A stretch of DNA of 49,864 nucleotides from positions 1 to 49,864 of the forward strand of contig CASEKR010000008.1 of the NCBI GenBank assembly GCA_949288585.1. The letters run 5' to 3'. A program made the position numbers and the translations under genes. This DNA is from an uncultured Bacteroides sp. (GTDB lineage Bacteria > Bacteroidota > Bacteroidia > Bacteroidales > Bacteroidaceae). Numbering within the stretch: position 1 is the stretch's first letter; every line of letters starts with the position of its first letter. The notes under the pieces are model-generated. The model saw only the letters and a list, made by a program, of their open reading frames with translations. It ran no database searches and had not been told where the DNA came from. Below, piece after piece: positions 15,609 through 36,204 of this stretch.

Positions 15609-18600
15609 ATGACACACCCAAGCAACGATAAAGCCCGAAAACTATGCCGCCGGCTTCTGGCCTGCCTGCTCGTGCTGGCCTTGGCCTGCACCGGCCTCCA
15701 TGCCAACGAAGTGCGCCAACTGACCATCCGCGACGGCCTGTCCAACAGCGCCATCAATTGCATCTACCAGGATTCGTGCGGCCTGCTGTGGTTTGGCACG
15801 TGGGACGGGCTGAACCAGTACAACAGCCGCGACATCCGCGTCTTCAAGCCCGACGTCGACTTCTCGCGCCGCAACATCAGCAACAACATCATCCGCCACA
15901 TCGTGGAAGAGCGGAAAGGCATCCTGTGGATTTCGACCGACTACGGCATCAACCGCTACGACGCCTCGGCCGACGAGTTCCGCTCGTTCTTCTGCACCAA
16001 CGTCGGCAAGGGCGTCTTCAAGGAACACTCTTTCTTCATAGACAAAGACAGCCGGGGACACATCTTCGCCCTGGTCAGCGAATACGGCCTGTACGTCTAC
16101 GACGAACGGCAGTCGGACTTCGTGCGCATGGAACTGAACATCGACTTCACGGTCAAGCAGATGTTCCTCGGCGCCGGCGATACCCTGTGGCTCTGTGCCG
16201 ACGACGGGACGCTGCACGCCGTGGCGCTGGACTATGCGGACCCTGCCGGCCCCCGGGCGGCGGGCATGAAGCAAGTGGCGGCCTGGCTCCGCGTAGACAA
16301 AGTATTTTACAACCCGGTGCGCGACGAGGTGTGGCTGCAGACGGCGGGAAGGGAAGTCTACCGTTCGCCGGCCTCGCGCGACGGCTTCCGCAAGGCGGCG
16401 ATGCAGGTGGCGGAGAAAATCACGGCGATGGCTTTCAAGGACTCATGCTGCTACGTGGGCACGCTGCAACGCCTCTACCGCTGGGAGGCCAACCGGCCGG
16501 AGGTGTTGCTGGACAACCTGCCCATCAACTCCTTGCACCTGGGCGAGCAGGACCTGCTGTGGGTGGGCACCGACTCGCGCGGCGTGTTCGTCTGGCCCGA
16601 GCGGCGCAACAACTTCCGCCGTTCTTCGGACCTGGCGCAGTTGGACTTTGGCAACGCGCCCGTCAGGACATTCTATGAGACGGACGACGGCAGCCTGCTT
16701 ATCGGCACCAAAGGCAGCGGCCTCTTCATCCGCCAGGGGAACCGCGTGCGCAACCTGACCTACCGCGACGGCCTGCCCACCAACTCGGTCTACGCCTTGT
16801 CCGGGGACGGGAGCAACACCGTGTGGGTCTGCGCCGAAGGCCGGGGGCTGACCTATTACTCCGTGGGCGAACGACGCCTGTGGCAAGTGCAGCGCGTGCC
16901 CCGCGAACTGCAGGATGTCTTCTCCATCTGCCAGCAGGACGACTCGACGCTTTGGGTGGGCACCAACGGCCAGGGCATCTTCAAGCTGCTGGTCGACAAG
17001 GCCGCACGCCCCTTCTCGGTGAAAGCCTGGCGGCAGTACGCCTACCAGTTCGACAGCGACAACTGCCTGAACAACAATTCCGTCTACGCCCTCCTGCCCG
17101 ACGGCGGCCGGGGCTTGTGGATAGGCACGCGGGGCGGGGGGCTGAACTACCTGGACTTTGCCACCGGCGCTTTCTCGTATTACCGCGCGTCCGACCGCCC
17201 CGGCGCGCTCAGCAACGACGACATCCTCTGCCTCTACCAAGACGACGACAGCACCCTGTGGATAGGCACCAGCAACGGCCTGAACCACCTGACGGACCGT
17301 GAAGCCGCCACCTTCCGTTGGTACAACGAGAAAGACGGCATCCCCAACAACACCATCCACGGCATCCTGCGCGGCAGCGGGAACACGCTGTGGGTCAGCA
17401 CCAACCGGGGGCTGGCCCGACTGGACAAAGGAAGCGGCAAGATCATCTCCTACTTCTCGACGGACGGCTTGCAGGACGACGAGTTCTCGGACGGCGCCTT
17501 CTACGCCTCGCCCCATTCCCCGCTGCTTTACTTCGGCGGGATGAGCGGCTACACCGTCTTCAACCCCTCGGCCATCAAGGAAGACAGCCACATGCCCCCG
17601 CTCTTCCTGCGCAGCTTCTCCGTCAACAACGTCCGCCAGCCCCTTGCGGCGCGCCTGGACGGGGACGGACGCCTGCGCCTGGCCTACGACGAAAACCTGG
17701 TCATCTTCCGCTTCGTCCCCATCGACTACGTGCAGGGGGCGAAGTGCGAGATAGCCTACCGCCTGAAGGGATACGGCGACGACTGGATTGAACTGGGCAC
17801 GTCGGGCACCGTCGTGCTGAACAACCTGCCGACGGGGCGCTACACCCTCTCCGTCAGGTGCCGCAACGCCAACAAAGAGTGGAGCCCCGCCGAGTCGGAG
17901 CTTGCCATCCAAGTCCTGCCCCCGTGGTGGCTCAGCGGGTGGGCCTACCTGGCCTACGCCGTCTTCTTCGCCGCCTGCGCTTTTTCCCTCTACCACAACT
18001 CCATGCACCGCCTCCGCATGAAGCAGAAGCTGCGGATGGAGAAGATGGAAAACCAGAAAGCCGAAGAAATCCACCAAGCCAAACTCCGCTTCTTCACCAA
18101 CATCGCCCACGAGTTCTGCAACTCGCTGACCCTGATTTACGGCCCTTCGGAACGCCTCTCCAAACTGTGCGAAGACAATCCCGTCCTGAAACGCTACCTG
18201 CAAGTCATCAAGTCGAACGCCGAGCGCATGCAGGAACTTATCCAGCAACTGATGGAGTTCCGCAAGGTGGAGACCGGCTACCTGGAACTGTTCATCGAGC
18301 AGGTGGACGTCGGGGAACTGGTGGAACACACCGCCGGCTACTTCGTGGAGATGGCCGAAGAGAAGTCCATCGACTTCAGCCAAAGCCTGGAGCCCGGGGC
18401 GAAGGCGTGGAACACCGACCGGGGAGCCGTCGAGAAGATACTGTTCAACCTGCTTTCCAACGCCTTCAAGTACACGCCCGACAGGGGCAGCGTCGCCGTC
18501 CGCGCCGAGTGTGCCGACGGCTGCCTGCAACTGACCGTGCGCAACACCGGGCGTGGCATCCGCCAGGAAGACCAGTCGCTCGTCTTCAACCGCTTCAAGG

Positions 18601-19652
18601 TGCTGGACCGCCTGGAAGACCATCTGCTGACCGGCGGCAGCGAGATGCGCAACGGCATCGGCCTGGCCCTGTGCAAGTCGCTGGTCGACCTGCTGAAAGG
18701 CGACATCCGCATCGACAGCCGCGAGGACGAATACACCGACTTCATCGTCCGCCTGCCGCAACTGCCCCTGTCGCCCGCCCAGCCTGAACATGCCCCCGAG
18801 GACAGGCCCGGCCGCCGCTTCCGCCTGTCCATGCCCGTCCGGGCCGAGCAAAGGAAAGAAGCCTCTTCGGCGGTTCTTAGCGACGAACTCCGCACGATAC
18901 TGGTCGTGGACGACGACGCGGAAGTCCGCGAACTGCTGGCCGACATCCTGCGGGGAAAGTACAACGTCCTGGCCGTCCCCGACGCGCGCGAAGCCCTCGA
19001 ACTGCTCAAGCTCCGCATTCCCGACTTGGTCGTCTGCGACATCATCATGCCCGGCATGTCCGGCTTCGAACTGCTGAACCGCCTCAAGCAGGACGAACTT
19101 ACGGCCCACATCCCCGTCATGCTGCTCTCGTCGGACACGTCGGTCGACAGCAAGATAGAGGGCACGAACATCGGCGCCGACGCCTACCTCTCCAAGCCTT
19201 TCCACGAAGCATACCTGCTGGCCGTCGTCGACCACCTGCTCAGCAACCGGCAGAAGCTGAAAGACTACTTCAACTCACCCCTGTCGTCGATGGAGCGGGT
19301 CAAGGGGAAACTCCTGCACAAGGAGGACAAGGAGTTCATCCACCAACTGACCAAGATTGTCGCCGCCAACCTCGACAACGAACAGTTCTCGCAAGATTTC
19401 CTGGCGCAGGAGATGGGCATCAGCAAGATGCAACTCTACCGCAAGCTGAAGGACATCCAGGGCGAGACGCCCACCGACTTCATCCGGGGCATCCGCCTGA
19501 AGCAGGCCGAGAATCTGCTGAAGACGACCAACAAGACCGTGCAGGAAATCATGTACGACTGCGGATTCAACAACAAGGCCTATTTCTACCGCGCCTTCGC
19601 CAAGGAGTTCGGCTCCACGCCCAAGGAATACCGCGACCGCCACAAGGCCTGA
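15609..19652 (+). CDS. Hybrid two-component system sensor-regulator (HTCS)
   Basis: A 1347-residue one-protein two-component system, the usual regulator of Bacteroides polysaccharide loci. In order: signal peptide (1-30); periplasmic two-bladed propeller region with many Reg_prop repeats (LLWFGTWDGLNQY, ILWISTDYGINRY, TLWVGTNGQGIF, LWIGTRGGGLNYL, TLWIGTSNGLNHL); Y_Y_Y domain (YRLKGYGDDWIELG); membrane helix near 775-797; HisKA with phospho-acceptor His834 (NIAHEFCNSLTLI); HATPase (NLLSNAFKYTP, GIGLALCKSL); receiver domain with phospho-acceptor Asp1144 (VCDIIMPGMSG, SKPF); AraC-type HTH (about 1240-1345). The periplasmic part should bind an oligosaccharide and the AraC part activates the operon. 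ATG 15609 is chosen because the signal peptide follows directly. A paired direct repeat 60 bp beyond its stop is the likely binding site. Confidence 0.95.
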   Translation: MTHPSNDKARKLCRRLLACLLVLALACTGLHANEVRQLTIRDGLSNSAINCIYQDSCGLLWFGTWDGLNQYNSRDIRVFKPDVDFSRRNISNNIIRHIVEERKGILWISTDYGINRYDASADEFRSFFCTNVGKGVFKEHSFFIDKDSRGHIFALVSEYGLYVYDERQSDFVRMELNIDFTVKQMFLGAGDTLWLCADDGTLHAVALDYADPAGPRAAGMKQVAAWLRVDKVFYNPVRDEVWLQTAGREVYRSPASRDGFRKAAMQVAEKITAMAFKDSCCYVGTLQRLYRWEANRPEVLLDNLPINSLHLGEQDLLWVGTDSRGVFVWPERRNNFRRSSDLAQLDFGNAPVRTFYETDDGSLLIGTKGSGLFIRQGNRVRNLTYRDGLPTNSVYALSGDGSNTVWVCAEGRGLTYYSVGERRLWQVQRVPRELQDVFSICQQDDSTLWVGTNGQGIFKLLVDKAARPFSVKAWRQYAYQFDSDNCLNNNSVYALLPDGGRGLWIGTRGGGLNYLDFATGAFSYYRASDRPGALSNDDILCLYQDDDSTLWIGTSNGLNHLTDREAATFRWYNEKDGIPNNTIHGILRGSGNTLWVSTNRGLARLDKGSGKIISYFSTDGLQDDEFSDGAFYASPHSPLLYFGGMSGYTVFNPSAIKEDSHMPPLFLRSFSVNNVRQPLAARLDGDGRLRLAYDENLVIFRFVPIDYVQGAKCEIAYRLKGYGDDWIELGTSGTVVLNNLPTGRYTLSVRCRNANKEWSPAESELAIQVLPPWWLSGWAYLAYAVFFAACAFSLYHNSMHRLRMKQKLRMEKMENQKAEEIHQAKLRFFTNIAHEFCNSLTLIYGPSERLSKLCEDNPVLKRYLQVIKSNAERMQELIQQLMEFRKVETGYLELFIEQVDVGELVEHTAGYFVEMAEEKSIDFSQSLEPGAKAWNTDRGAVEKILFNLLSNAFKYTPDRGSVAVRAECADGCLQLTVRNTGRGIRQEDQSLVFNRFKVLDRLEDHLLTGGSEMRNGIGLALCKSLVDLLKGDIRIDSREDEYTDFIVRLPQLPLSPAQPEHAPEDRPGRRFRLSMPVRAEQRKEASSAVLSDELRTILVVDDDAEVRELLADILRGKYNVLAVPDAREALELLKLRIPDLVVCDIIMPGMSGFELLNRLKQDELTAHIPVMLLSSDTSVDSKIEGTNIGADAYLSKPFHEAYLLAVVDHLLSNRQKLKDYFNSPLSSMERVKGKLLHKEDKEFIHQLTKIVAANLDNEQFSQDFLAQEMGISKMQLYRKLKDIQGETPTDFIRGIRLKQAENLLKTTNKTVQEIMYDCGFNNKAYFYRAFAKEFGSTPKEYRDRHKA

Positions 19653-19712: not shown

Positions 19713-19780
19713 TTGCAAGCGCAGGATACCCCTTTGCAAGCGTAGGATACCCGTTTCCCCGCTTTTCGCTGCTTACTTTG
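19713..19780 (+). promoter_or_regulatory. Probable HTCS operator (two direct repeats) and operon promoter
   Basis: TTGCAAGCGCAGGATACCC (19713-19731) and TTGCAAGCGTAGGATACCC (19734-19752) are 19-bp direct repeats with one difference. Their starts are 21 bp apart, two helical turns, the arrangement expected for a dimeric AraC-type activator. A -7-like box TTACTTTG (19773-19780) follows after 20 bp with no -33 element, so the repeats occupy the position where an activator would replace it. ATG of the first operon gene is at 19804. Confidence 0.7.
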
Positions 19781-19803
19781 TGCAAACCAAAGACACAAGA
19801 ACC

Positions 19804-20847
19804 ATGGATATTGCACAACGATTTCAAGAGAATCCCCTGCTGAAACCGGCAGATTTGAAGCCCTGCATCGAGGGCATGGAGATAGCTTGCCTGCTGAACC
19901 CCGGCGTGTTCCGGTGGAAGGGAAAGATAGGCCTGCTGCTCCGCGTGGCCGAACGCCCCCGGCAGCAGGACGGGAAAATCAGCTTCCCCGTTTTCGACGA
20001 GCGGGGCGAGATTAAGGTACTGACGTTTGACAAGGATGACCCCGAACTGGACGCCTCCGACCCGCGCGTCATCCTATACCGGGGACAGAACTACCTGACC
20101 ACCATGTCCTACCTGCGCCCCGTGTTCAGCGCCGACGGCATCCATTTCGCGGAAGACGAAGCCGTCCGTCCCCTCTACGGCAAGGGGGAACTGGAGAGCT
20201 TCGGCATCGAGGACTGCCGCGTGGCCACCATCGGCGATACTTACTACCTGACCTATTCCGCAGTGTCGCCCGTGGCTGTGGGCGTGGGGCTGATAACCAC
20301 GCGCGACTGGCAGACGTTCGACCGCCGGGGGATGATTTTCCCGCCCCATAACAAGGATTGCGCACTGTTCGAAGAAACCATCGGCGGCATGTATTACGCT
20401 TTCCACCGCCCCAGCAGCCCCGAACTGGGCGGAAACTACATCTGGCTGGCCCAGTCGCCCGACGGCGTGCATTGGGGGCAGCACCGTTGCGTGGCCACCA
20501 CTCGCCCCGGCTGTTGGGACGAGGCGCGGGTGGGAGCCGGAGGACCGCCCATCAGGACGCCCGAGGGATGGCTGGAGATTTACCACGGCGCGACGAAGGA
20601 GCACCGCTATTGCCTGGGCGCCCTGCTGCTGGACCTGCAAGACCCTTCGAAGGTGCTGGCGCGCAGCGCGGAACCCATCATGGAGCCGCTGATGCCCTAC
20701 GAGCAGGCCGGGTTCTTCGGCAACGTGGTCTTCAGCAACGGGCACTACGTGGACGGGGACACCATCTACCTGTACTATGGCGCCAGCGACGAGGTCATCT
20801 GCGGCGCGCGCCTCTCCATCGAACAGATTCTGCAAACCCTCCGATAA
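19804..20847 (+). CDS. GH130 family beta-mannoside phosphorylase or hydrolase
   Basis: A 347-residue protein of the five-bladed propeller GH130 family: LKPCIEGMEIACLLNPGVFR at the N-terminus, the acid-carrying ELESFGIEDCRVATIGDTYY (family GIEDPR), HNKDCALFEETIGGMYYAFH-RPSSPELGG, and VGAGGPPIRTPEGWLEIYHG. It ends with LYYGASDEVICGARLSIEQI. Known GH130 enzymes either phosphorolyse beta-1,4-mannosides or hydrolyse beta-1,2-mannosides; the HRP segment is what phosphorylases use near phosphate, but I cannot settle the activity. There is no signal peptide, so it works in the cytoplasm on imported di- or oligosaccharides. It is the first gene after the HTCS operator. ATG 19804 is preferred to 19780, which would coincide with the -7 box. 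Confidence 0.88.
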   Translation: MDIAQRFQENPLLKPADLKPCIEGMEIACLLNPGVFRWKGKIGLLLRVAERPRQQDGKISFPVFDERGEIKVLTFDKDDPELDASDPRVILYRGQNYLTTMSYLRPVFSADGIHFAEDEAVRPLYGKGELESFGIEDCRVATIGDTYYLTYSAVSPVAVGVGLITTRDWQTFDRRGMIFPPHNKDCALFEETIGGMYYAFHRPSSPELGGNYIWLAQSPDGVHWGQHRCVATTRPGCWDEARVGAGGPPIRTPEGWLEIYHGATKEHRYCLGALLLDLQDPSKVLARSAEPIMEPLMPYEQAGFFGNVVFSNGHYVDGDTIYLYYGASDEVICGARLSIEQILQTLR

Positions 20848-20859
20848 TCCCCCCGCGCC

Positions 20860-22098
20860 ATGTTTACCCGACTGAACAAAGAAATCGCGTTCTTCCGCCA
20901 GAAGCCGCACAACATGCAGGTCTTGCTGCTGACCAACCTGCTCTATGCCTGCGTGCTGCCGGTGGTGGAAATCTTCGTGGGCGCCTACATCATGCGCAAC
21001 ACCCAAAGCCCCTCCTTTGTGGCCATGTACCAGCTGGCTATGTACATCGGCATCGTGTTGGCCTCCGTCGTGAACGGCGAACTGTTGAAGTTTTTCCGCG
21101 TCAAGCACCTGTACAGCTTCGGCATCCTGGTCAGCGGCCTTTCCATGGTCGTGATGATGGGCTTGAACACCGTGGCCTTGGGCCAACTGTTCGTGGCCGG
21201 CGTCTTCATGGGCGTGGCCTCCGGCTTCTTCTGGACCAACCGCTACCTCTTGGCGCTGAACTCCACGGCCGACGACGACCGCAACTACTTCTTCGGCCTC
21301 GAGTCGTTTTTCTTCTCCGTCTGTTCCATCGGTGTCCCCATCGTGGTGGGCGCGTTCCTGGCGTGGGCGTCGGGCCTGCGCTGGCGGGGGGAGGAGATTG
21401 GCGTCAATGCGGCCTACCAATGGGTGACCGTCGGCGTGTTCCTCGTCACCATTGCCGCCTGCGTCGTCCTCTCGCGGGGCACGTTCCAGAACCCGGCGCA
21501 GAAGAAGTGCTGGTACCTGCGCTACGACCCGTTGTGGCTCAAGATGCTGCTGCTGGCCGCGCTGAAGGGGCTGGTGCAGGGCTTCCTGGTGACGGCTCCG
21601 GCCATCCTGGTGATGTATTTCCTGGGCAGCGAGGGCAAGCTGGGGCTTATCCAGGGCTTGGGCGGGCTGGTGACGGCGTTGCTGGTCTACGTGCTGGGCC
21701 GGGTGTCGCAGCCCCGCCACCGCATCTACATCCTGGCGGGCGGCATCGTCGTCTTCCTGGCGGGCACGGTGGTCAACGGCCTCCTGTTCTCCGCCGCCGG
21801 GGTCATTGTCTTCGTCCTATGCAAGGTGCTGTTCCAGCCGCTGCACGACCTGGCCTATTTCCCCATCATGATGCGCTGCATAGATGTGGTGTCCGCCCGC
21901 GAGCGCCGCAATGAATATACCTACATCATGACGCACGAAATCGGCCTCTTCGCCGGGCGCGCCGTCGGGCTGCTGCTGTTCATCGCCCTGGCCTGGCTGG
22001 TGTCGGAAGTCTTTGCTTTGAAGTACGCCCTCGTCATTGTCGGCCTGGTGCAGTTGTCGGCCATCCCGCTGGCGGCCCACATCGTGCGGAAATGTTGA
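20860..22098 (+). CDS. MFS transporter, probable glycoside importer
   Basis: A 412-residue inner-membrane protein with about twelve hydrophobic helices (for example VLLLTNLLYACVLPVVEIFV, LKGLVQGFLVTAPAILVMYF, VGLLLFIALAWLVSEVFALK) and the charged loop SARERRNEYTYIMTHEIGLF typical of a Bacteroides MFS group found next to GH130 genes. It starts 12 bp after the GH130 stop. By position it should bring the di- or oligosaccharide made in the periplasm to the cytoplasmic GH130. The substrate is inferred from this pairing only. Confidence 0.82.
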   Translation: MFTRLNKEIAFFRQKPHNMQVLLLTNLLYACVLPVVEIFVGAYIMRNTQSPSFVAMYQLAMYIGIVLASVVNGELLKFFRVKHLYSFGILVSGLSMVVMMGLNTVALGQLFVAGVFMGVASGFFWTNRYLLALNSTADDDRNYFFGLESFFFSVCSIGVPIVVGAFLAWASGLRWRGEEIGVNAAYQWVTVGVFLVTIAACVVLSRGTFQNPAQKKCWYLRYDPLWLKMLLLAALKGLVQGFLVTAPAILVMYFLGSEGKLGLIQGLGGLVTALLVYVLGRVSQPRHRIYILAGGIVVFLAGTVVNGLLFSAAGVIVFVLCKVLFQPLHDLAYFPIMMRCIDVVSARERRNEYTYIMTHEIGLFAGRAVGLLLFIALAWLVSEVFALKYALVIVGLVQLSAIPLAAHIVRKC

Positions 22099-22265: not shown

Positions 22266-23939
22266 ATGAAAATTCTTGACTTTATCCCTCTGTTGCTGGT
22301 GGCCGGGCTGACGGCCTGCCAACCTTCGGCCGAGCCGGTGGCGCAAGCGCGCATTGCGAGGATAGACTCCATGCCCGACTTCCCCCGGCCCTACAAGATG
22401 CTGGACTGGAAGCAGAAGGCCCGCGACTTCGACGCCTTCGCCTTCGACCACCATTCGGAACTGCCCTGTGGCCCGGTCATCTGGCTGGACGACACGCAGC
22501 GCAACTTGCCGCAGACCACCTTCGGCATCTACACCGCCATCCACGATGTGCGCCAGGGTCCGGACCACAACGGCGGCGAGTTCCACGAGAGCCTCAACTC
22601 GATGGCGGCCGTCCTGGGCGCCACGCTGGTGGGCATCGACAAGAGCCGCCAGGACGGGTTCAACTACGTGAAGATGCTTCAGAATTACTTCAACTCGGAC
22701 ACGGGCTGGAACATCATGATGAACAACACCTGCCCCGACGTGGCGCAGCTGGGCGGCGGATACGGGCGCGACTGGTGGTACGACGTGCTGCCCAACGCCC
22801 TGTTCTACGCCATCTGCGACCTCTATCCCGGCATCGACGGAGCCGAAGCCCTGCAACGCACCATCGCCGAACAGTTCTACAAGGCCGACTCCGTCCTGGC
22901 CGGCAACTACGACTATTCCTACTTCGACTACGGCCGCATGAAGCCCATGCGCAATGCCATCCCCTACCAGCAGGATGCTGCCGGCGGCCACGGCTACGTG
23001 CTCTACGCCGCCTGGCAGAAGTTCCGCGACCCGCGCTACCTGCGGGGAGCCATCTCGGCCATCGACGCCCTGCACGCCCAGCGCGAGAGCCGCTTCTACG
23101 AAATCCTCCTCCCCCTGGGCATCTACACCGCCGCTCGCCTGAACGCTGAGCATGGCACGCGGTACGACCTGGGCAAGATGCTCGGTTGGGCCTTCGACGG
23201 CTGCACCAGTCCCACCGGGCGGACCGGCTGGGGCATCATCGTCGGTCGTTGGGGCGGCTACGACGTCAGCGGCCTGCAAGGCAGCACCACCACCGGCTAT
23301 GCTTTCCTGATGAACAGCGTGAAGATGGCCTGGCCCTTGGTGCCGATGGTGAAGTACCAGCCGCAGTATGCCGTGGCCATCGGCAAGTGGATGCTGAACA
23401 ACGCCAACGCCTGCCGCCTCTTCTACCCCAATGAACTGGACGACCGCCACCAGTGGTTGCCGCAGATGAAGGACATCACCCGGGGCATCGTGGCCTACGA
23501 GGGCCTCATCCGCGAGGACAACTACGGCCGCCCCGACCTGGAAGGCATCAGCCCCATGGGCATCGGCGACGGCCCGCGCTGGAACCCGAAGAATCCGCCT
23601 GAGTCGATGTTCAGCCTGTACAGCACGTCGCCCGTCGGCATCCTGGGCGCCATTGTCGACACCACCGACGTGGAGGGCATCCTGCGCCTGGACTGCAATT
23701 GCACCGACTTCTATGCCGATCGCAGCCGTCCCGTCTACCTGCTCTACAATCCCTATGACGAAGACAAAACCGTTACCTACCGGCCCGCTTCCGCCGCCGC
23801 CTTCGACCTCTACGACCGCCTCGCCGGCACCTGCCTGGCTCGCGACGCCCGGCCGTCGGACGTCCTCACGGTCAGCGTGCCCGCCAAAGGGGCTTGCCTG
23901 CTTGTCGAGCAGGCGGCCGGAAGCCCGCCCGGGAAATGA
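22266..23939 (+). CDS. Exported lipoprotein of an unrecognised family, paralogue A
   Basis: A 557-residue lipoprotein with lipobox LTAC (Cys18). I do not recognise the family. It is a clear paralogue of the protein at 29866. Shared blocks include MPxxPxPYxMxDWKQ, ESxNxMxxxxGATLxGxDK, DWWYxxxPNxLFYxxxDLYP, GWGxxVGRWxGxDVSG, AIGKxxLNxANAxRLFY and SxAPVGxLGxIxxxTDVExIL (SxSPVG here). The predicted pattern is a long helical, Trp/Tyr/Asp-rich region (about 40-450) followed by a small beta domain (about 470-550), as in (alpha/alpha)-barrel glycoside hydrolases or lyases. In the middle of a glycan operon it is best seen as a candidate glycan-cleaving enzyme at the periplasm or cell surface. ATG 22266 gives the signal peptide directly. 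Confidence 0.7.
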   Translation: MKILDFIPLLLVAGLTACQPSAEPVAQARIARIDSMPDFPRPYKMLDWKQKARDFDAFAFDHHSELPCGPVIWLDDTQRNLPQTTFGIYTAIHDVRQGPDHNGGEFHESLNSMAAVLGATLVGIDKSRQDGFNYVKMLQNYFNSDTGWNIMMNNTCPDVAQLGGGYGRDWWYDVLPNALFYAICDLYPGIDGAEALQRTIAEQFYKADSVLAGNYDYSYFDYGRMKPMRNAIPYQQDAAGGHGYVLYAAWQKFRDPRYLRGAISAIDALHAQRESRFYEILLPLGIYTAARLNAEHGTRYDLGKMLGWAFDGCTSPTGRTGWGIIVGRWGGYDVSGLQGSTTTGYAFLMNSVKMAWPLVPMVKYQPQYAVAIGKWMLNNANACRLFYPNELDDRHQWLPQMKDITRGIVAYEGLIREDNYGRPDLEGISPMGIGDGPRWNPKNPPESMFSLYSTSPVGILGAIVDTTDVEGILRLDCNCTDFYADRSRPVYLLYNPYDEDKTVTYRPASAAAFDLYDRLAGTCLARDARPSDVLTVSVPAKGACLLVEQAAGSPPGK

Positions 23940-28660: not shown

Positions 28661-29854
28661 ATGAAACAGACTCTTATCTTACTGGCCTGCGCTTCGGCCC
28701 TTTGCGCCTGCGGCGGAAACAGCGAGAAAATCACCGACTACGACAACCAGGAAGGTGTGTTCGAATGGCAGTTCCCCAACAAGGACAACGAGAAAGCCTG
28801 GCACTACTACTCGTACAGCACCGAACGCTGGTGGGGCGACTTCCCCAAGGACATCAAGGTGCCGCAAGACATGTACAAGACCTATCCCTGGGCCATCGGT
28901 CCCTGCACCAAGTATGAACACAATCCCGTGCTCCGGCCCACGCCCGGAGCCTGGGACAAGGGACGCTTCGGCGGCGGCGTGCACAACGGCAGCGTCGTGG
29001 TGAAGGACGGTGTCTTCTACTACGTCTATCGCGGCGAGCAGCCCATCGACGTCAAGCAGGACACGCCCATCGACTACATCTGCGACATCGGCGTGGCCAC
29101 CAGCACCGACGGCATACACTTCGTGAAAGATACGCTCAACAGCCCCTTCTTCCGCAAAGGCGAAGACCGCAAGTATAGTTACGAAGACGTCAACCTCGTG
29201 AAGAAGGGCGACACCTACTACCTCTTCTGCAACCAATGGTACTGGCCGGACCAGCAAGACTACACGCAGAACGGCACCTTCTTAGCCACCTCGAAAGACT
29301 TGCGCCACTGGGAGAAGGTGGGCATCGTCTTCCCCGAAGCCAAGCGCACGCACCGCAACGGCGTCGTCCTACAGAATCCGCGCAATGAGGCCGTGCAGGT
29401 CAACGGCAAGTACATCATGTACCTCAACGACGGCCTGATTGCCTATTCCGACGACCTCATCCATTGGGAGTCGAAGGAGAACCCCCACCGCTGGCCCGGC
29501 GGCGAAGGATGTTTCGCCCTGTGCGACCACACTTCGGCTGACCCCGACCGGATAGTCCTCTTCACCGGCGGCAACCACACGGGCCACTTCTATGCCATCG
29601 GCGAGGTGCTGCTGTCGAAGAAAGACCCCGAAAAGGCGTTGGACTACCTGCCCGCGCCTGTCCTGGCCGCCAACCCGCACTATCCTTATGAGAACGGCTA
29701 CACGGCCGACGCGCCTTTCCGCCCCATCTCCGCCTTCAGCGACTGCATCTTCTTCAACGGCTTGACGCTGCACGACGGGCGGTGGTGGTTCTACTACGGC
29801 GGCAGCGAATACTACACGTGCCTGGCACATTCACCTTATCAGAACAACAAGTAA
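28661..29854 (+). CDS. GH130-like (five-bladed propeller) lipoprotein
   Basis: A 397-residue lipoprotein with lipobox LCAC (Cys17). The mature protein has the GH130-type landmarks: KYEHNPVLRPTPGAWDKGRF, HNGSVVVKDGVFYYVYRGEQ, KYSYEDVNLVKKGDTYYLFC (family EDP region), HRNGVVLQNPRNEAVQVNGK and the closing WWFYYGGSEYYTCLAHSP. GH43/GH32-like propellers look alike at this level, so the family call is probable, not certain. Because it is exported it would act on the glycan or its oligosaccharides outside the cytoplasm, complementing the cytoplasmic GH130 at 19.8 kb. It follows SusD by 21 bp and precedes paralogue B by 11 bp. Confidence 0.78.
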   Translation: MKQTLILLACASALCACGGNSEKITDYDNQEGVFEWQFPNKDNEKAWHYYSYSTERWWGDFPKDIKVPQDMYKTYPWAIGPCTKYEHNPVLRPTPGAWDKGRFGGGVHNGSVVVKDGVFYYVYRGEQPIDVKQDTPIDYICDIGVATSTDGIHFVKDTLNSPFFRKGEDRKYSYEDVNLVKKGDTYYLFCNQWYWPDQQDYTQNGTFLATSKDLRHWEKVGIVFPEAKRTHRNGVVLQNPRNEAVQVNGKYIMYLNDGLIAYSDDLIHWESKENPHRWPGGEGCFALCDHTSADPDRIVLFTGGNHTGHFYAIGEVLLSKKDPEKALDYLPAPVLAANPHYPYENGYTADAPFRPISAFSDCIFFNGLTLHDGRWWFYYGGSEYYTCLAHSPYQNNK

Positions 29855-29865: not shown

Positions 29866-31560
29866 ATGAAGACTTACATGAAATCATACATACTCGCCCT
29901 GCTGGCCGCCGGACTGGCCGCCGCCGCCCCGGCGCAGCAACTCAGCATCGGCCGCATCGAGCAGATGCCGAACAAGCCGGAGCCGTACATCATGCGCGAC
30001 TGGAAACAAGTGGCCTTGGGCTACGACTCGCTGGTCTACGACATCCACCGCAAGGGGCAGTACCTCCCCCTGACCCGCATCACTTCGCAGACCGAGAACT
30101 TCCCCGGCCGGAAGTCTTACCTGCAATACACTTTCGTGGGTTCGGTCGACACGTTGAAGACGGAGTCCATCAACACTTTCATGTCCATCATTGGAGCTAC
30201 CCTCTGCGGCGTGGACAAGACCCGTTCCTTCGGTCAGAACTGGGTGCTGATGTCCGAAGAGTTCTTCAACCGCAAGAACGGGCTGAACCTCTATGGCAAC
30301 CGGACGAACTCCGTCACCGGCAACGACTGGTGGTACGAACTGATTCCCAACGTCCTTTTCTACCAACTCTATGACCTCTATCCCGACGTGGGCGACTTCC
30401 GCCGTCAGTTCACCGTCGTGGCCGACCGTTGGCTGGAGTGCGTGAAAGCCTTGGGCGGCGACCCTGAAAAGGGAACCTTGCCCGAGACCAACTACCGCGC
30501 CTTCAACTTCGCCACGATGAAGCCCTTGCTGGGCAGCGTGCCCGAACCCGAGTCGGCCGGGGCCATGGGCTGGCTGTTCTACATGGCTTATTCACAGACC
30601 GGACACAAGAAATACCTCGACGCCGCCAAACTCTGCATGGAGCGGTTCTCCAGCTTCACTACCAGCCCCACCTACGAGTTGCAGTATCTTTACGGCACGC
30701 TGTGCGCCGCGCGCATGAATGCCGAGTTGGGTACGGACTACGACCTGCACAAGATGCTGAACTGGTGTTTCGACGTAGGGCCGCTGCGTCAGTGGGAGCA
30801 TACCTTGGGCTGGGGTTGCGTCGTAGGACGTTGGAACGGCATGGACGTGTCGGGCATGATGGCCGCCGTCAGCCGCGAGGGCGAGACTACGTGGGGCGAC
30901 TATGCCTTCGTCATGAACGCCTTCCAGCAGATGGGCACCCTGGCGCCGCTGGTGCGCTACAACGACCGCTACGCGCGGGCCATCGGCAAGTACCTGCTGA
31001 ATGCCGCCAATGCCAACCGCCTGTTCTACTCGAAGTACCTGCCCGTCGAGAACCAGGACTGCGCGGAGTGGTCGCGCAAGTATGACCCGCATTCCTACAT
31101 CGCCTACGAGGCCGTGCGGCAGTATAAAGACGGCAAAAGCCCCTTCGCCACCGGCGACGCCATGTCCCAAGGCTGGGCGCGGACCAACTTGTCGCTTTAC
31201 AGTTCGGCTCCTGTCGGCTACCTGGGCGGCATCCTGGAGAAGACCGACGTCGAGGCCATTCTGAAGTTCGACTTGACTAAGACCGACTTCTTCCACCGTG
31301 CGGCTTATCCTACTTCTTTGTTCTATAACCCGTACGAAACCAGCCAGCAGGTCAGCTTCGACCTGGGTCAGGAAACCTGCGACGTGTACGATGCCGTGTC
31401 TAACACCTTCCTGGCCAAAGGCGTGAAAGGCATCTGGCGTTTCGACATCCCGGCCGACGCAGCTGTCGTGCTGGTGAAGTGTCCCGCAGGCGGCACGCTC
31501 AGCCGGGAGGGGGCGAAGCTGCTGGTGGACGGAGTTGTCATTGATTACAACCACCCCTAA
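29866..31560 (+). CDS. Exported protein of an unrecognised family, paralogue B
   Basis: A 564-residue protein with a type I signal peptide ending AAAPAQQ and no lipobox, so it is likely a soluble periplasmic protein, whereas paralogue A is lipidated. It shares the blocks listed for the protein at 22266, including DWWYELIPNVLFYQLYDLYP, GWGCVVGRWNGMDVSG and AIGKYLLNAANANRLFYSKY, and the same C-terminal beta domain. The duplicated pair within one operon suggests two related cleavage steps, perhaps surface and periplasm or two linkages. Acidic candidates for catalysis are conserved in both, but I cannot assign them. It ends 12 bp before the first methyltransferase gene, which ties the glycan part of the operon to the corrinoid part. 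Confidence 0.7.
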   Translation: MKTYMKSYILALLAAGLAAAAPAQQLSIGRIEQMPNKPEPYIMRDWKQVALGYDSLVYDIHRKGQYLPLTRITSQTENFPGRKSYLQYTFVGSVDTLKTESINTFMSIIGATLCGVDKTRSFGQNWVLMSEEFFNRKNGLNLYGNRTNSVTGNDWWYELIPNVLFYQLYDLYPDVGDFRRQFTVVADRWLECVKALGGDPEKGTLPETNYRAFNFATMKPLLGSVPEPESAGAMGWLFYMAYSQTGHKKYLDAAKLCMERFSSFTTSPTYELQYLYGTLCAARMNAELGTDYDLHKMLNWCFDVGPLRQWEHTLGWGCVVGRWNGMDVSGMMAAVSREGETTWGDYAFVMNAFQQMGTLAPLVRYNDRYARAIGKYLLNAANANRLFYSKYLPVENQDCAEWSRKYDPHSYIAYEAVRQYKDGKSPFATGDAMSQGWARTNLSLYSSAPVGYLGGILEKTDVEAILKFDLTKTDFFHRAAYPTSLFYNPYETSQQVSFDLGQETCDVYDAVSNTFLAKGVKGIWRFDIPADAAVVLVKCPAGGTLSREGAKLLVDGVVIDYNHP

Positions 31561-31572
31561 ATCATCTTGCGT

Positions 31573-32643
31573 ATGGACAACGAATTTCAACCGGATTACC
31601 GGAACATACTGAAGGTGCTCTACAACCAGCGACCCGACTACCTGCCGCTATACGAGCACCACATCGACCCGCCTTTCATCGCCAAGTGCATCGGGCGCGA
31701 GCTTTCGATAGACGACTGCGTGACCGACGCCGACCTGGACGACTACTTCCGCACGTACATCGGCTTTTGGCGAGACAATACCTACGATGCCTTCGACTAC
31801 GAGGCGGCCGTCTGCGAAATCTATCCCGGCCACGGGGCCATCTTCGGCGGAATGCCTGGCCCCATCCAGACGCGCGACGACTTCGAAAGGTACCCCTTCG
31901 ACGAGTTGCCCGCGCTGTTCTGGCGGAAGTACGCCCCGCGCTTAGAGTCCATCCGCCGCGTCATGCCCCCCGGCATGAAGGCTTACGGAGGCTGCGGCTA
32001 CGGCATCTTCGAATCGGCGCAGGACTTGGTTGGCTACGAAAACTTGTGCGTCATGCAGTATCTCGACCCCGAACTGTTCACCGACTTGTTCAACAAGATA
32101 GGCGAGTTGTACCAGGCGTTGTGGACGGAGATGGTGCGCCGTTACAGCGACATCTTCGTGTTCTTCCGCATGGGCGATGACCTGGGACACCGCACGGCCA
32201 CGATGCTCGAACCGGATGCCATCCGCCGGTTCATCCTGCCGCAACACAAGAAGGTGGTAGACATCGTGCATGCCGCCGGAAAGAAGTTCCTGCTGCACAG
32301 TTGCGGCAACATCTTCGAGGTAATGCCCGACATCCTGGCCACGGGCATCGACGCGAAGCATTCCAACGAAGACCAGATTGCTCCCTTCGACCGCTGGGTG
32401 GATGATTATTCGGAGCGAATCGGGCTCTTCGGAGGCTTCGACATGAACTACCTGATTTTGCATCCCTACGACGAAGTCTACCGGAAGGTGCTGGAAGAAG
32501 GCACGCGCTTCCGGACCAAGGCACGGGGGTATGGATTGGGGTCGGGTAATTCGATTCCCGACTACATGCAGGTCGAGGGCTACCGGGCCATGATAGACGC
32601 CGTGAAAGAAATCCGGCGGAGAGAACGTAACATTAATAAATAG
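31573..32643 (+). CDS. UroD-family corrinoid methyltransferase (candidate MT-I)
   Basis: A 356-residue cytoplasmic protein of the uroporphyrinogen-decarboxylase/MtaA superfamily. The barrel landmarks are present: GMPGPIQTRDDFERYPFDEL, FVFFRMGDDLGHRTATMLEP, KKFLLHSCGNIFEVMPDILA (the H-x-C half of a zinc site) and HPYDEVYRKVLEEG. Where MtaA-like enzymes have a third ligand Cys (TGC), this protein reads GLGSGNSIPDYM. It is not true HemE, whose N-terminal arginine motif is missing. In corrinoid systems such proteins move a methyl group between a substrate and a B12 protein. Standing first, beside glycan enzymes and the corrinoid protein, it is the best candidate for demethylating the substrate. 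ATG 31573 is preferred to the TTG at 31567. Confidence 0.8.
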   Translation: MDNEFQPDYRNILKVLYNQRPDYLPLYEHHIDPPFIAKCIGRELSIDDCVTDADLDDYFRTYIGFWRDNTYDAFDYEAAVCEIYPGHGAIFGGMPGPIQTRDDFERYPFDELPALFWRKYAPRLESIRRVMPPGMKAYGGCGYGIFESAQDLVGYENLCVMQYLDPELFTDLFNKIGELYQALWTEMVRRYSDIFVFFRMGDDLGHRTATMLEPDAIRRFILPQHKKVVDIVHAAGKKFLLHSCGNIFEVMPDILATGIDAKHSNEDQIAPFDRWVDDYSERIGLFGGFDMNYLILHPYDEVYRKVLEEGTRFRTKARGYGLGSGNSIPDYMQVEGYRAMIDAVKEIRRRERNINK

Positions 32644-32657
32644 GAGAAAGCAGATTT

Positions 32658-33347
32658 ATGAGCGACAATAACGTATTGGAACAGATAGCCACTTGCGTGG
32701 AATACGGGAAACTGAACGCCAAGATGGCCTACCCGCCCTTCCTGAAGGGGCAGGATGGTGTGGAAGAACTGGTGCCGCAAGCCCTGGCCGGAGGCGCCGC
32801 CCCTAACGACATCCTGACCCACGGGCTGATAGTAGGCATGAGCCGCATCGGCGTGAAGTTCAAGGAGAACAAAGTCTTCGTCCCCCAGGTACTGATGAGC
32901 GCCAAGGCCATGAACATCGGCATGGATTTCCTGAAACCTTACTTTGCCGACGGCTCCGTGCAGCGCAAAGGGAAGTTCATCATCGGAACCGTCGAAGGCG
33001 ACCTGCATGACATCGGCAAGAACCTGGTTTCCATGATGGTGGAAGGCAACGGATATGAGGTCATCGACCTGGGCGTGAACGTTCCGGCCGAGAGGTTCGC
33101 GGCGGCTGCACGCGAGCATCCGGGGGCTTTCATCGGCATGTCGGCCCTGCTGACTACTACGATGGTCAACATGGAGGGGATAAACCGCGCCATCAAGCAG
33201 GAAGACGCCTCGGCCGTGACCTTCGCCGGAGGGGCGCCCGTCAGCGAGGAGTTCGCGAAGAGCATCGGCATCGACTATTACACGGAAGAGCCGCAAGAAC
33301 TGGTGGAGATTCTGAACAAGCTGACCGGCTATGAACGATGTGCGTGA
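32658..33347 (+). CDS. Corrinoid (B12-binding) methyl-carrier protein
   Basis: A 229-residue protein with the two domains of MtaC/MtbC-type methyl carriers. A helical cap (about residues 1-95, including NDILTHGLIVGMSRIGVKFK and VPQVLMSAKAMNIGMDFLKP) precedes a Rossmann B12 domain (about 100-225). The D-x-H-x2-G motif is complete in VEGDLHDIGKNLVSMMVEGN; His117 would ligate cobalt from below. GMSALLTTTM and FAGGAPVS are the S-x-L and GG motifs that hold the nucleotide tail. It should carry a methyl group on cobalt between the two UroD-family methyltransferases. It overlaps the next gene by 17 bp. No signal peptide; cytoplasmic. Confidence 0.92.
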   Translation: MSDNNVLEQIATCVEYGKLNAKMAYPPFLKGQDGVEELVPQALAGGAAPNDILTHGLIVGMSRIGVKFKENKVFVPQVLMSAKAMNIGMDFLKPYFADGSVQRKGKFIIGTVEGDLHDIGKNLVSMMVEGNGYEVIDLGVNVPAERFAAAAREHPGAFIGMSALLTTTMVNMEGINRAIKQEDASAVTFAGGAPVSEEFAKSIGIDYYTEEPQELVEILNKLTGYERCA

Positions 33348-34023
33348 ACAAGCCGTGACCGTTGCCGACTGGCTGCCCGATGTGAAGGAGGTGCTGGCTG
33401 AGATGGGCTATCCCGGCGGCCGGGAAGCAGACCCCTTCCTCGGGCAGCAGGTCGGGGAACTGATGGGCAGTCTGGTCGGAAAGGTCGAACCTCTCTTTGC
33501 CTACCGCATCGTTCCCGCCCGGGTGGACGAGAACGGCGGGACGGTGTGGGCGGCAGACACCTGCCTGAAGACGGGGCATGTCATCACTCCGCTGATGCGG
33601 GGCGTCTCGGCATTCGCCATCTTCGCGGCCACGGCGGGGGAGTACCTGACCCGGCGGATGAGGCTGGCGGCACAGGAGCATGACGTGTTGGAAGAATACC
33701 TGCTGAGCGCCATCGGTTCGTGCGTGGCCGAGAAGGCCGGCGACTGCATGGAGCATACTTTGCAGGCCGATATCGGCGAGTGGAAGCACACCCGCCGTTT
33801 CAGCCCCGGCTATTGCGGCTGGCCGCTGTCCGACCAACGGGAGGTGTTCCGCCTGCTGGGGGGAGAGCCTTGCGGGATTACCTTGTCCGACTATTGCCTG
33901 ATGTCCCCCATCAAGTCCATCAGCGGCTTGGTGGGCATCGGGCGCGAGGTGAACCAGCACCAGTACGGCTGCGCGCTGTGCGATTTGGAATCTTGTTATA
34001 AACGGAAAAAGAAAAAACTATGA
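33331..34023 (+). CDS. Stand-alone MetH activation-domain protein (corrinoid reactivation)
   Basis: A 230-residue protein resembling the C-terminal activation domain of B12-dependent methionine synthase. The key block is EWKHTRRFSPGYCGWPLSDQ, then CGITLSDYCLMSPIKSISGL, matching the S-adenosylmethionine-binding RxxPGY...P region of MetH. It probably reductively remethylates the carrier when Co(I) is accidentally oxidised to Co(II). The C-terminus has a small cysteine cluster, YGCALCDLESCYKRKKKK (C-x2-C-x4-C), which could bind a metal or Fe-S centre and is absent from MetH itself. It overlaps both neighbours (17 bp and 4 bp), so it is made with them. No RamA/RACE-type Fe-S activator is present in the operon. 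Confidence 0.85.
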   Translation: MNDVREQAVTVADWLPDVKEVLAEMGYPGGREADPFLGQQVGELMGSLVGKVEPLFAYRIVPARVDENGGTVWAADTCLKTGHVITPLMRGVSAFAIFAATAGEYLTRRMRLAAQEHDVLEEYLLSAIGSCVAEKAGDCMEHTLQADIGEWKHTRRFSPGYCGWPLSDQREVFRLLGGEPCGITLSDYCLMSPIKSISGLVGIGREVNQHQYGCALCDLESCYKRKKKKL

Positions 34024-35039
34024 GCAGAAACATGACACAGTGGGCCTCGGCCCTGATGGCGAAGCGCGAGCGTTCCGCTATCCCCATCCTGACGCATCCG
34101 GGCATAGAGATGTGCGGCCGCAACGTGCAAGAGGCCGTGACCGATGGGCGGGTGCATTACCAGGCCATCCGTAAACTGTGCGACGCGTATCCGTCGGCAG
34201 CGGCTACGGCCATCATGGACCTGACCGTGGAGGCGGAAGCCTTCGGCGCGGAAGTGGCTTTTGCCCCGGATGAGGTGCCCAATGTGACAGGCGTCTTGGT
34301 GAAAAGCATGGACGATGTGGAAGAACTGGAAGTGCCGGACGTCAGCCGGGGCAGGATTCCTCAATACCTGATGGCCGACCGCTTGGCGGCCGAAAACATC
34401 CTCGACCGTCCGACGCTGGCGGGCTGCATCGGCCCGTATTCGCTGGCCGGCCGTCTGATGGGCATGACGGAAATCATGACAGGGATCTATACAGACCCCG
34501 AACTGGTGACACTTTTGTTGGAGAAATGCACGGAGTTCCTGTTGCGCTATTGCCAAGCCATCAAAGCGACCGGCGTAGGCGGGGTTATCATGGCAGAGCC
34601 GGCTGCCGGACTTCTCTCGTTGGAAGACTGTTCGGCCTATTCGTCCGTGTATGTCAAGCGCATCGTCGGGCAGGTACAGGATGACTCGTTCTGGGTCGTG
34701 CTACACAACTGCGGGAATACCGGCCATTGTACGCCGGCCATGGTAGAGACCGGGGCGAAAGGCCTGCACTTCGGCAACCGGGCGGACATGGCGGAGGCGT
34801 TGGAGGCTTGTCCTGCCGATTGCCTCGTCATGGGGAACCTCGACCCGGTGGGCTGCCTGAAGACTGCCACGGCCGGAGAGGTCTACCGGGCCACTTCGCA
34901 ATTGCTGGAACAGACGTCCGGCTTCGCCAACTTTGTGTTGTCTACCGGTTGCGACGTCCCGCCGCAGGTGCCTGGAGAGAACATCGCCGCGTTCTACCGC
35001 GCGCTCCGAGAGTATAACGAATCCCGTTCAGTCGGATAA
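34020..35039 (+). CDS. MtaA/CmuA-like UroD-family methyltransferase (candidate MT-II)
   Basis: A 339-residue protein closer to MtaA/MtbA than the upstream one. It begins with the MtaA-type segment IPILTHPGIEMCGRNVQEAV and has CIGPYSLAGRLMGMTEIMTG, GGVIMAEPAAGLLSLEDCSA, VVLHNCGNTGHCTPAMVETG (H-x-C zinc ligands) and VLSTGCDVPPQVPGENIAAF (third ligand Cys). A complete thiolate-activating zinc site suggests that the methyl acceptor is a thiol, as coenzyme M is for MtaA. Bacteroidota are not known to make coenzyme M, so homocysteine or another thiol is a guess. It overlaps the activation-domain gene by 4 bp (ATGA) and precedes an MFS gene by 19 bp. Confidence 0.85.
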   Translation: MSRNMTQWASALMAKRERSAIPILTHPGIEMCGRNVQEAVTDGRVHYQAIRKLCDAYPSAAATAIMDLTVEAEAFGAEVAFAPDEVPNVTGVLVKSMDDVEELEVPDVSRGRIPQYLMADRLAAENILDRPTLAGCIGPYSLAGRLMGMTEIMTGIYTDPELVTLLLEKCTEFLLRYCQAIKATGVGGVIMAEPAAGLLSLEDCSAYSSVYVKRIVGQVQDDSFWVVLHNCGNTGHCTPAMVETGAKGLHFGNRADMAEALEACPADCLVMGNLDPVGCLKTATAGEVYRATSQLLEQTSGFANFVLSTGCDVPPQVPGENIAAFYRALREYNESRSVG

Positions 35040-35058
35040 CCCAAAACATTTCTTTGCC

Positions 35059-36204
35059 ATGAATCTGAAAAAGCATGCTGCCCCGCTCGTCCCCCTGATT
35101 CTCTCGTTCTTCATCATGGGCTTTGTGGACGTGATAGGGGTGACGACCAATTTTGTGAAAGAAGACTTTGGCCTGTCCGATTCCTTGGCCAATGTCTTTC
35201 CCTCCTCCGTGTTCCTGTGGTTCTTGCTGTTGTCCGTCCCCATCGGTCTGTGGATGAACCGCGTGGGTTGCCGCAAGACGTTGGCCTTGGGCGTGGTAGT
35301 GACGGGTGCGGCTCTGTTGTTGCCCTATGTAGCCGGCGGGTTGGGCGGCATCCTGGCCTCGTTCTGCCTGTTGGGGATAGGGAATACGCTGATTCAGGTC
35401 TCCATCAATCCGTTGGCGGCGTGCGTGGTTAGTGGAAAGAAACTGGCTGGCGCCTTGACTTTCGGGCAGTTCATGAAGGCAATGGCCTCTTTCTTAGGGC
35501 CGGTGTTGGCTGCCTGGGCGGTGGGCGCCACGGGGCATTGGCAGCCGTTGTTTCTGGGGATGTCTGCCGTGGCTTTCCTGGTGGCGGCCGGGTTGATGCT
35601 TGTGCCCGTCCGCGAAGGGCAGACGCTTCGTCCTTCGTCGTTCGGGCAGTGCGCCTCGTTGTTGAAAGACAAGTTCATCCTTCTGCTTTTCATCGGCATC
35701 CTTTGCCATGTCGGCATGGATGTGGGCATTAACGTGACGTTGCCGAAGATTTTCGTCGAGCGTCTGCATTGCACTTCTGCCGAGGCCGGCTATGCTTCGA
35801 GCGCCTATTTCTTGTTCCGCACGGTAGGCTGCCTGGGTGGAGCGTTCCTGTTGGCGCGTTGTTCGGCACGGCGGTTCTTCCAGGGCAGCCTGCTTGCCTT
35901 GGGCGCGGGCATTGCGGGACTGTTCTTCTTCGACCGCGAGCCGTTGCTTTATGTTTCCATCGTGCTGCTGGGACTGGGCAATTCCAATGTCTTTTCCCTC
36001 ATCATCTCCCAAGGACTGCTGCATCGGCCCGATGCGCGCAACGAAGTGTCGGGGCTGATGGTGATGGGCTTGGTGGGCGGTGCCGTTTTCCCCTTGCTCA
36101 TGGGCTTTTTGTCCGATGCCGTGGGGGCGCAGTGGGGAGCGGTGCTGGTGCTGTGCCTGGGTCTGGCCTACCTGGCTGTCGTGGGGCTGCGCGTACGCGA
36201 CTAA
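35059..36204 (+). CDS. FucP-like sugar MFS permease
   Basis: A 381-residue, twelve-helix major-facilitator protein: PLILSFFIMGFVDVIGVTTN in helix 1, then FPSSVFLWFLLLSVPIGLWM, LASFCLLGIGNTLIQVSINP and LLGLGNSNVFSLIISQGLLH. The GNTxxQVSxNPL pattern and the helix-1 sequence place it near the L-fucose/glucose:H+ symporters. It closes the operon. Since the operon already has an MFS gene at its start, this one may carry a different product, for example the free (O-methyl) monosaccharide released in the periplasm. ATG 35059 gives a normal N-terminus. Its codons include more TTG and TGT than its upstream neighbours, a mild hint of a different origin. Confidence 0.85.
   Translation: MNLKKHAAPLVPLILSFFIMGFVDVIGVTTNFVKEDFGLSDSLANVFPSSVFLWFLLLSVPIGLWMNRVGCRKTLALGVVVTGAALLLPYVAGGLGGILASFCLLGIGNTLIQVSINPLAACVVSGKKLAGALTFGQFMKAMASFLGPVLAAWAVGATGHWQPLFLGMSAVAFLVAAGLMLVPVREGQTLRPSSFGQCASLLKDKFILLLFIGILCHVGMDVGINVTLPKIFVERLHCTSAEAGYASSAYFLFRTVGCLGGAFLLARCSARRFFQGSLLALGAGIAGLFFFDREPLLYVSIVLLGLGNSNVFSLIISQGLLHRPDARNEVSGLMVMGLVGGAVFPLLMGFLSDAVGAQWGAVLVLCLGLAYLAVVGLRVRD

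Follow-up and report, generated by a model that had tools for sequence, protein, structure and literature searches.

Among the closest described counterparts of the locus analysed here are MtvABC, OdmABCD/VdmB and MtoABCD, three-component O-demethylases of methoxy-aromatic compounds that, like this locus, combine a substrate methyltransferase and a corrinoid carrier with a second methyltransferase and an activator. A second methyltransferase of the folate type (MtrH-like) is a feature of these aromatic O-demethylases. For methylated sugars, a P450 system of marine aerobes that oxidatively demethylates 6-O-methyl-D-galactose is described in passages of two papers and likewise removes a sugar methyl ether in glycan use (PMC10033563, PMC12316285), and a 2025 paper on gut porphyran states, in the passage concerned, that how anaerobes carry out demethylation is not yet elucidated and that a mechanism awaits discovery (PMC12316285). 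Here, we analysed a stretch of 49,864 bases (the window) from an uncultured Bacteroides sp., in which a polysaccharide utilisation locus of the Sus type runs into genes for a corrinoid-dependent methyl-transfer system. The window comprises bases 1-49864 of the 58,980-base contig CASEKR010000008.1 in a draft genome (G000) of 3.25 Mb and 120 contigs.

We consider it probable that this locus degrades an O-methylated glycan of the beta-1,2-mannoside type and strips the methyl ether by its corrinoid system, a reading that draws on gene content and order, protein motifs, the independence of two gene modules, their co-occurrence in other genomes and linkage to mannosidase genes. The original prediction, made from the window alone, had likewise proposed demethylation of an O-methylated, perhaps beta-mannosidic glycan; its full corrinoid set and its tie to glycan genes held and its guess of beta-mannosidic links fits, whereas SusCD was not a conserved partner.

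Gene content of the two halves

The corrinoid half consists of MT1, CP, ACT, MT2 and a permease, MFS2, in this order and all on the + strand. As predicted, the set of corrinoid genes is complete; its members are closely spaced and run in the same direction as the glycan locus, and two methyltransferase-type proteins and an activator accompany the carrier. CP (32658..33347, +; PF02310, PF02607), the corrinoid-binding methyl carrier, has the D-x-H-x2-G motif ascribed to it (GDLHDIG at residues 114-120) as well as the SxL (S162-A-L) and GG (at 191) motifs of corrinoid proteins, and it scored 179.5 bits against TIGR02370, the cut-off of which is 215.3.

MT1 (31573..32643, +; PF01208, 68.2 bits), the proposed substrate-specific O-demethylating methyltransferase, belongs to the URO-D superfamily and is only remotely MtaA-like (24% identity to MT2; 32.5 bits to the MtaA/CmuA model); no close solved relative was found among PDB sequences. 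Its H244-x-C246 is invariant, and Asn328, present in 30 of 30 aligned sequences, occupies the position of C311 in MT2. MT2 (34020..35039, +; PF01208, 180.7 bits, its sole Pfam match) is an MtaA-like URO-D protein and the proposed methyl-corrinoid:acceptor methyltransferase. Its H229-x-C231 and C311, conserved in six of six sequences and aligned to 4ay7, the best solved relative, fit the MtaA/CmuA pattern, and we take them to be zinc ligands of that type; the protein scored under the NCBIfam subfamily cut-offs (133.6 vs 235.4 bits for TIGR01463 and 140 vs 244 bits for NF004889). No other methylase, of the folate type (MtrH-like), was found among the proteins of the cluster. Because MT2 keeps the MtaA-type His-x-Cys...Cys and the cluster has no folate-type methylase, its acceptor is likely to be a thiol; MTHFR is encoded in the genome, and so a folate link for the methyl groups may remain.

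ACT (33331..34023, +; PF02965, 37.4 bits, cut-off 25) is a stand-alone MetH-activation-domain protein and the proposed reductive activator, and its family profile matches 1j6r, a solved stand-alone activation domain. A C-terminal C-x2-C-x4-C, found in the window protein and five relatives and in 20 of 20 further homologues, suggests an iron-sulfur (Fe-S) site; an R-x-S-P-G-Y-C motif was present in 13 of these 20. In one other locus (L135), ACT is fused to a CobW GTPase domain. A Ram/RACE protein was not found among the twelve genes of the locus, to which this search was confined and which hold the PF02965 activator instead. MFS2 (35059..36204, +; PF07690) is of the sugar type by weak matches; its homologues directly follow MT2 in L064 and MT1 in L052, L066 and L099. 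In L099 (7584-11171), MT1 and the MFS2 homologue are accompanied by a ROK kinase, and in L045 (16761-19903) an MFS2 homologue, a ROK-like kinase and a partial MT1-like match stand in a row; these kinase neighbours suggest a possible kinase step after demethylation.

The glycan half, in the order GH130a, MFS1, EXP1, SusC, SusD, GH130b and EXP2 (all +), has the make-up of a Sus-type polysaccharide utilisation locus, with adjacent SusC and SusD genes, a regulator and glycosidases. GH130a (19780..20847, +; PF04041; GTG start listed, ATG at 19804) is likely to be a cytoplasmic beta-1,2-mannoside phosphorylase: no signal peptide was seen in it, and it aligned at 571 bits to Uhgb_MS (9eqq) and at 334 bits to the beta-1,2-mannobiose phosphorylase Lin0857 (5b0p), while its NCBIfam scores were below the cut-offs (NF050092, 413.8 vs 550 bits; NF052550, 212 vs 450 bits). 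A review table gives beta-1,2-mannobiose among the products of Uhgb_MS (PMC8950772). The guess of beta-mannosidic links fits the match of GH130a to Uhgb_MS. GH130b (28661..29854, +) is a lipoprotein of a divergent GH130-like type and may be a beta-1,2-mannosidase; it scored 25.5 bits against PF04041 (Pfam cut-off 26), 86.5 and 66.8 bits against the beta-1,2-mannobiose phosphorylase and beta-1,2-mannosidase models, far under their cut-offs, and 61.8 bits against a solved beta-1,2-oligomannan phosphorylase (PDB 9fj8).

EXP1 (22266..23939, +), an exported lipoprotein with a lipobox read by eye, and its exported paralogue EXP2 (29866..31560, +; 39% identity) belong to a family that was found neither in Pfam, also at E<=1, nor in NCBIfam or PDB sequences. 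Because two longer homologues carry Laminin_G_3 and the secretion tail Por_Secre_tail, we regard EXP1 and EXP2 as candidate glycan-cleaving enzymes and as members of a putative new glycoside hydrolase family. We took their weak C5-epimerase and LanC-like matches to be fortuitous or to hint at a helical barrel. The remaining glycan genes encode MFS1, an inner-membrane permease (20860..22098, +; PF07690), a SusC-like TonB-dependent transporter (23982..27044, +; PF07715, PF13715, PF00593) and a SusD-like lipoprotein (27077..28639, +; PF07980, PF14322). Upstream lies the gene for the hybrid two-component regulator HTCS (15609..19652, +; first ATG 15609), which has Reg_prop, Y_Y_Y, HisKA, HATPase_c, response regulator and AraC helix-turn-helix domains. 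Just past the end of the window, another SusC/SusD-like pair was recognised by eye on the minus strand (L260:3591-8162).

That twelve same-strand genes follow the HTCS gene in the order first described was confirmed, and they span 19780-36204. The junction of 12 bp between the halves was also as described (EXP2 stop 31560, first ATG of MT1 31573), and an alternative listed TTG start at 31567 would shrink this gap to 6 bp. Some details needed correction: CP and ACT overlap by 17 bp and ACT and MT2 by 4 bp, but MT1 and CP lie 14 bp apart without overlap; and the two exported proteins are real paralogues but are not adjacent, with GH130b rather than EXP2 next after SusD. No Bacteroides-type promoter pattern was found inside the locus, which says little because the pattern matched only at 7571-7600 across the whole window. 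No + strand terminator-like site was found between 21802 and 36603, in a scan that found fewer sites than shuffled sequence gives, and these weak promoter and terminator scans recognised no separate promoter for the corrinoid genes. It is plausible that the twelve genes form one transcript.

Distribution and neighbours of the two modules

Of 12 stretches from other genomes, 10 have consecutive homologues of GH130a, MFS1, EXP1, SusC and SusD, the MFS1 homologue adjoining that of GH130a and the EXP1 homologue lying between MFS1 and SusC, and none of the 12 contains a match to MT1, CP, ACT or MT2. EXP homologues occur in 28 of the order's 295 genomes and in 6 of 201 genomes of the family, and the 12 stretches were drawn from the 27 carriers in the order other than G000. 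Stretches of three genomes from the same genus (L191, L209, L211) contain the glycan core and no corrinoid genes. The glycan half and the corrinoid half are separate modules, and the glycan half stands alone in relatives. The unassigned EXP family has its place in the GH130-MFS-EXP1-SusC-SusD row in 10 of the 12 stretches (L191-L202).

MT1 was detected in only one of 201 family genomes, namely G000 itself (E<=1e-60). A scan of one genome per species yielded 51 MT1-related loci elsewhere, mostly in drafts labelled Bacteroidales or Bacteroidota, with three from Verrucomicrobiota or Limisphaerales and with record names that refer to guts, lakes and sediments; no match was found in PLSDB plasmids at 1e-20. 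CP-ACT-MT2 is linked to MT1 in 5 of these 51 loci (L063, L064, L074, L078 from Barnesiella sp. An55, and L081), and L262, from one more Barnesiella-family genome, also links the four genes. L064 has MT1-CP-ACT-MT2-MFS2, the same order as the window. MT1 is directly beside CP in the window and L064 and one gene apart in L063, L074, L078 and L081; a single protein of 894-903 aa, with a weak GH5 match in L063, lies between them in L063 and the Barnesiella loci. Immediately before MT1, L063, L074, L078, L081 and L262 carry another, distantly related URO-D gene. When mapped onto a tree with 47 MT1 and 2 outgroup rows, the linkage of the four genes requires three changes, at least two of them on well-supported branches. 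Two loci, L092 and L094, had no MT1 annotated, an overlapping opposite-strand frame having been picked, and were dropped; near MT1 in the remaining 49, single-gene matches numbered 7 for CP, 5 for ACT and 8 for MT2.

This arrangement bears on the possibility that MT1, as a URO-D-fold enzyme, catalyses some other reaction in sugar catabolism and that CP-ACT-MT2 serves methionine synthesis only. The placement of MT1 beside CP, or one gene from it, argues against such a division of labour, as does the family of G109, in which MT1 and ACT occur in the same four of nine genomes and are missing from the same five. Favouring it are the lack of a close solved MT1 relative, the altered MT1 zinc signature and a MetH-like protein of 952 aa on contig 40 of G000 (L259:3926-6784), which by eye seems to stop before the activation domain. 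We regard this explanation as very improbable.

Across genomes, stand-alone ACT (E<=1e-30) was found in 34 of the 46 MT1 genomes, which are those holding 49 of the 51 MT1 loci, compared with 34 of 289 order genomes without full-length MT1 (Fisher 6e-18). At 1e-6, ACT matched in 36 of the 46, in one of them only in a MetH-sized frame. In the order set, six genomes with full-length matches of at least 65% identity were counted as MT1-positive (four with ACT), and G022, with an MT1 fragment of 46 aa, was scored negative; the two sets share assemblies (for example, G270/G296, G007/G334 and G109/G321), and none of the six is within the 289.

Alternatively, the corrinoid cassette could serve methylotrophy or methyl-sulfur/selenium metabolism in general, in the manner of type 1 mlp clusters; it would then have arrived downstream of the glycan genes and share their transcript by accident. 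MT2 does resemble MtaA-like proteins, the arrival of MT1 looks recent because a search of the family's 200 other genomes did not detect it, and transfer as a unit is, in the part of the mlp paper concerned, its authors' simplest explanation for mlp clusters (PMC10418091). Against such a set stand the many loci in which MT1 relatives sit with glycan genes, the remote likeness of MT1 to MtaA and the lack of Ram/RACE among the twelve genes, and we hold this origin to be rather unlikely.

MT1 often has mannosidase or GH130 genes as neighbours. Probes for GH130, GH38 and GH92 matched in 23 of 49 MT1 loci and in none of 40 control stretches, a comparison that favours the MT1 set since the mannosidase probes came from MT1 loci, and that has only 40 controls; for stretches of at least 10 kb in both sets, the counts were 17/34 vs 0/21. 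Any carbohydrate-active enzyme (CAZyme) or glycoside hydrolase probe matched in 27 of 49 loci vs 4 of 40 controls. The controls were taken from the start of contig 10 in 40 of the 46 MT1 genomes, many being shorter than 20 kb, and related loci were counted singly. Of the 45 genes directly upstream of MT1 on the same strand, 12 are GH38-type, 3 are GH92 and 9 are second URO-D genes (L100, at a contig end, lacks a 90-aa MT1 frame, and three loci have no upstream gene). The seven GH38b cases all fall in one supported clade of eight MT1 rows. L066 is another Sus locus, with the order SusC-SusD-x-GH38-GH38-MT1-MFS2 and GH92 further along.

The original prediction had expected the corrinoid genes to be linked to SusCD across genomes, and corrinoid genes without SusCD in nearly all relatives were to speak against it. 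This is what we observed: SusC together with SusD occurred in 4 of 49 MT1 loci vs 1 of 40 controls, and either gene in 7 of 49 vs 3 of 40. The recurring linkage of MT1 is with glycoside hydrolases, not with SusCD, and the junction seen in the window is rare.

GH29 or GH95 genes were found in 7 of 49 MT1 loci (controls 4 of 40), sulfatase and GH2 genes in 5 of 49 each, and GH36-type genes were also present. Such neighbours, and the cassettes elsewhere with GH29, GH141 or rhamnosidase, would suit the same corrinoid O-demethylation acting on another O-methyl hexose or deoxyhexose found alongside mannose in the glycans of algae, invertebrates or plants. GH29/GH95 genes are unenriched while GH38, GH92 and GH130 genes are enriched, and both recognised glycosidases of the window are GH130 proteins; for this locus, we hold a sugar other than mannose to be unlikely, if the most credible of the alternatives.

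Those other cassettes were found among 20 ACT loci (L131-L150) of the 38 order genomes with E<=1e-30. A glycosidase, sulfatase or SusCD lies nearby in 8 of the 20 (L131, L132, L135, L137, L139, L140, L143 and L144), several of these matches being weak, and the probes used gave no such match in the remaining 12. In the clear cases, GH38 accompanies MFS2-like, URO-D, CP, MT2 and ACT genes in L135, GH29 accompanies URO-D, CP, MT2 and ACT in L143, and GH31 and GH141 stand beside CP and ACT in L132 and L144, with MT2 in L144 only; SusCD is near ACT in L131. Further neighbours in L132 and L144 are GH2 or rhamnosidase genes, a transporter of the SSS type and a protein of 354 aa that has no Pfam family. 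These two cassettes perhaps serve the demethylation of another methylated sugar; GH141 and rhamnosidases presumably point to rhamnogalacturonan II, a polysaccharide with methylated xylose and fucose. Because the glycosidases next to ACT differ (GH38, GH29, GH31/GH141), different first enzymes may match different sugars. The chances seem to us evenly balanced that anaerobic Bacteroidota possess a widespread, modular and oxygen-independent sugar-ether demethylation, in which swappable URO-D enzymes would be matched to neighbouring glycosidases (mannosidase, fucosidase, GH141/rhamnosidase) and would share a corrinoid carrier, an S-adenosylmethionine (AdoMet)-driven, probably Fe-S activator and an MtaA-like outlet to a thiol.

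Candidate substrate and pathway

In the pathway we propose for the window, the reactions, substrate, acceptor and protein locations of which are predicted from protein families and gene neighbours, HTCS would sense a breakdown product. EXP1, EXP2, GH130b and SusCD would cut a beta-1,2-mannoside glycan and take up the oligosaccharides, of which plain ones would be moved into the cytoplasm by MFS1 and phosphorolysed by GH130a, with beta-1,2-mannobiose giving mannose-1-phosphate and mannose. MFS2 would import the methylated sugar, O-methyl-mannose. MT1 would then move the ether methyl group of the sugar onto the Co(I) of CP, freeing plain mannose, and MT2 would pass this methyl group on from methyl-Co(III), the acceptor most likely being a thiol such as homocysteine or sulfide, while ACT would rescue oxidised cobalt using AdoMet.

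Several observations, apart from the origin of the probes and the small number of controls, weigh against demethylation of a beta-1,2-mannoside-type glycan. MT1 lacks the third Cys of the MtaA/CmuA zinc ligands. The whole CP-ACT-MT2 trio is not nearby in 44 of 49 MT1 loci, many in incomplete drafts, and stand-alone ACT was not seen in 11 of 46 MT1 genomes (12 without the partial match in G333; many drafts are again incomplete). Kinship confounds the co-occurrence of MT1 and ACT, as in the family of G007: of its 28 genomes, 21 have ACT and 3 have MT1, ACT being present in all three of the latter. No CAZyme probe matched in 22 of 49 MT1 loci, the 15 mannosidase genes upstream of MT1 are not 15 independent events, and SusCD linkage was rejected as a conserved feature for want of enrichment. 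No natural beta-1,2-mannan that bears methyl ethers is known to us, a subject that one broad literature search touched, and the candidate substrate is putative in how methylated mannose and a beta-1,2-mannoside would meet in one glycan.

Methyl ethers cap sugars in organisms other than snails. In snail glycans, sugars are likewise capped by methyl ethers, and 3-O-methyl-mannose terminates many of the N-glycans, according to passages of one paper (PMC8699351). Snail N-glycans are one realistic source of 3-O-methyl-mannose.

Comparison with described systems

Corrinoid demethylation in a polysaccharide utilisation locus was the subject of no paper among the matches listed in a search of the open-licence PubMed Central (PMC) literature. 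If the proposed pathway is true, it would connect vitamin B12 with feeding on glycans and possibly with the output of methyl-sulfur compounds. In the broader reading for anaerobic Bacteroidota, placing glycan methyl groups on a thiol would link glycan use in guts and sediments with the production of methionine or methyl-sulfur compounds. Barnesiella sp. An55 (L078) offers a named genome, not labelled as metagenome-assembled, that carries MT1-CP-ACT-MT2.

On the glycan side, GH130a is close in sequence to the beta-1,2-mannoside enzymes Uhgb_MS and Lin0857, and the same type of GH130 locus has no corrinoid genes in the 12 stretches of other genomes, unlike in the window. On the corrinoid side, the second methyltransferase of the locus is MtaA-like and not folate-type as in the Mtv, Odm and Mto systems, a MetH-activation-domain protein takes the place of their RACE-type ATPase activator, and the setting is glycan rather than aromatic. 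OdmB/VdmB, like MT1, belong to the URO-D superfamily, as stated in part of the work of Kountz and Balskus (PMC10418091). The type 1 mlp clusters described there also resemble the locus: they combine an MtaA-like protein with a corrinoid protein, lack a folate methylase, occur in anaerobes and have a thiol as their proposed acceptor; as far as that description goes, they differ in that Mlp2 and Mlp3 are both MtaA-like and are joined by Ram/RACE, whereas our locus has one MtaA-like protein, no Ram/RACE, and glycosidase and SusCD neighbours. The P450 system, in the passages cited at the outset, needs oxygen, yields formaldehyde and uses enzymes unrelated to those of the locus (PMC10033563, PMC12316285). 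The window locus and its relatives are a concrete candidate for the question of anaerobic demethylation raised in the porphyran paper (PMC12316285), one in which the type of chemistry is known while the substrate class and the setting are apparently new.

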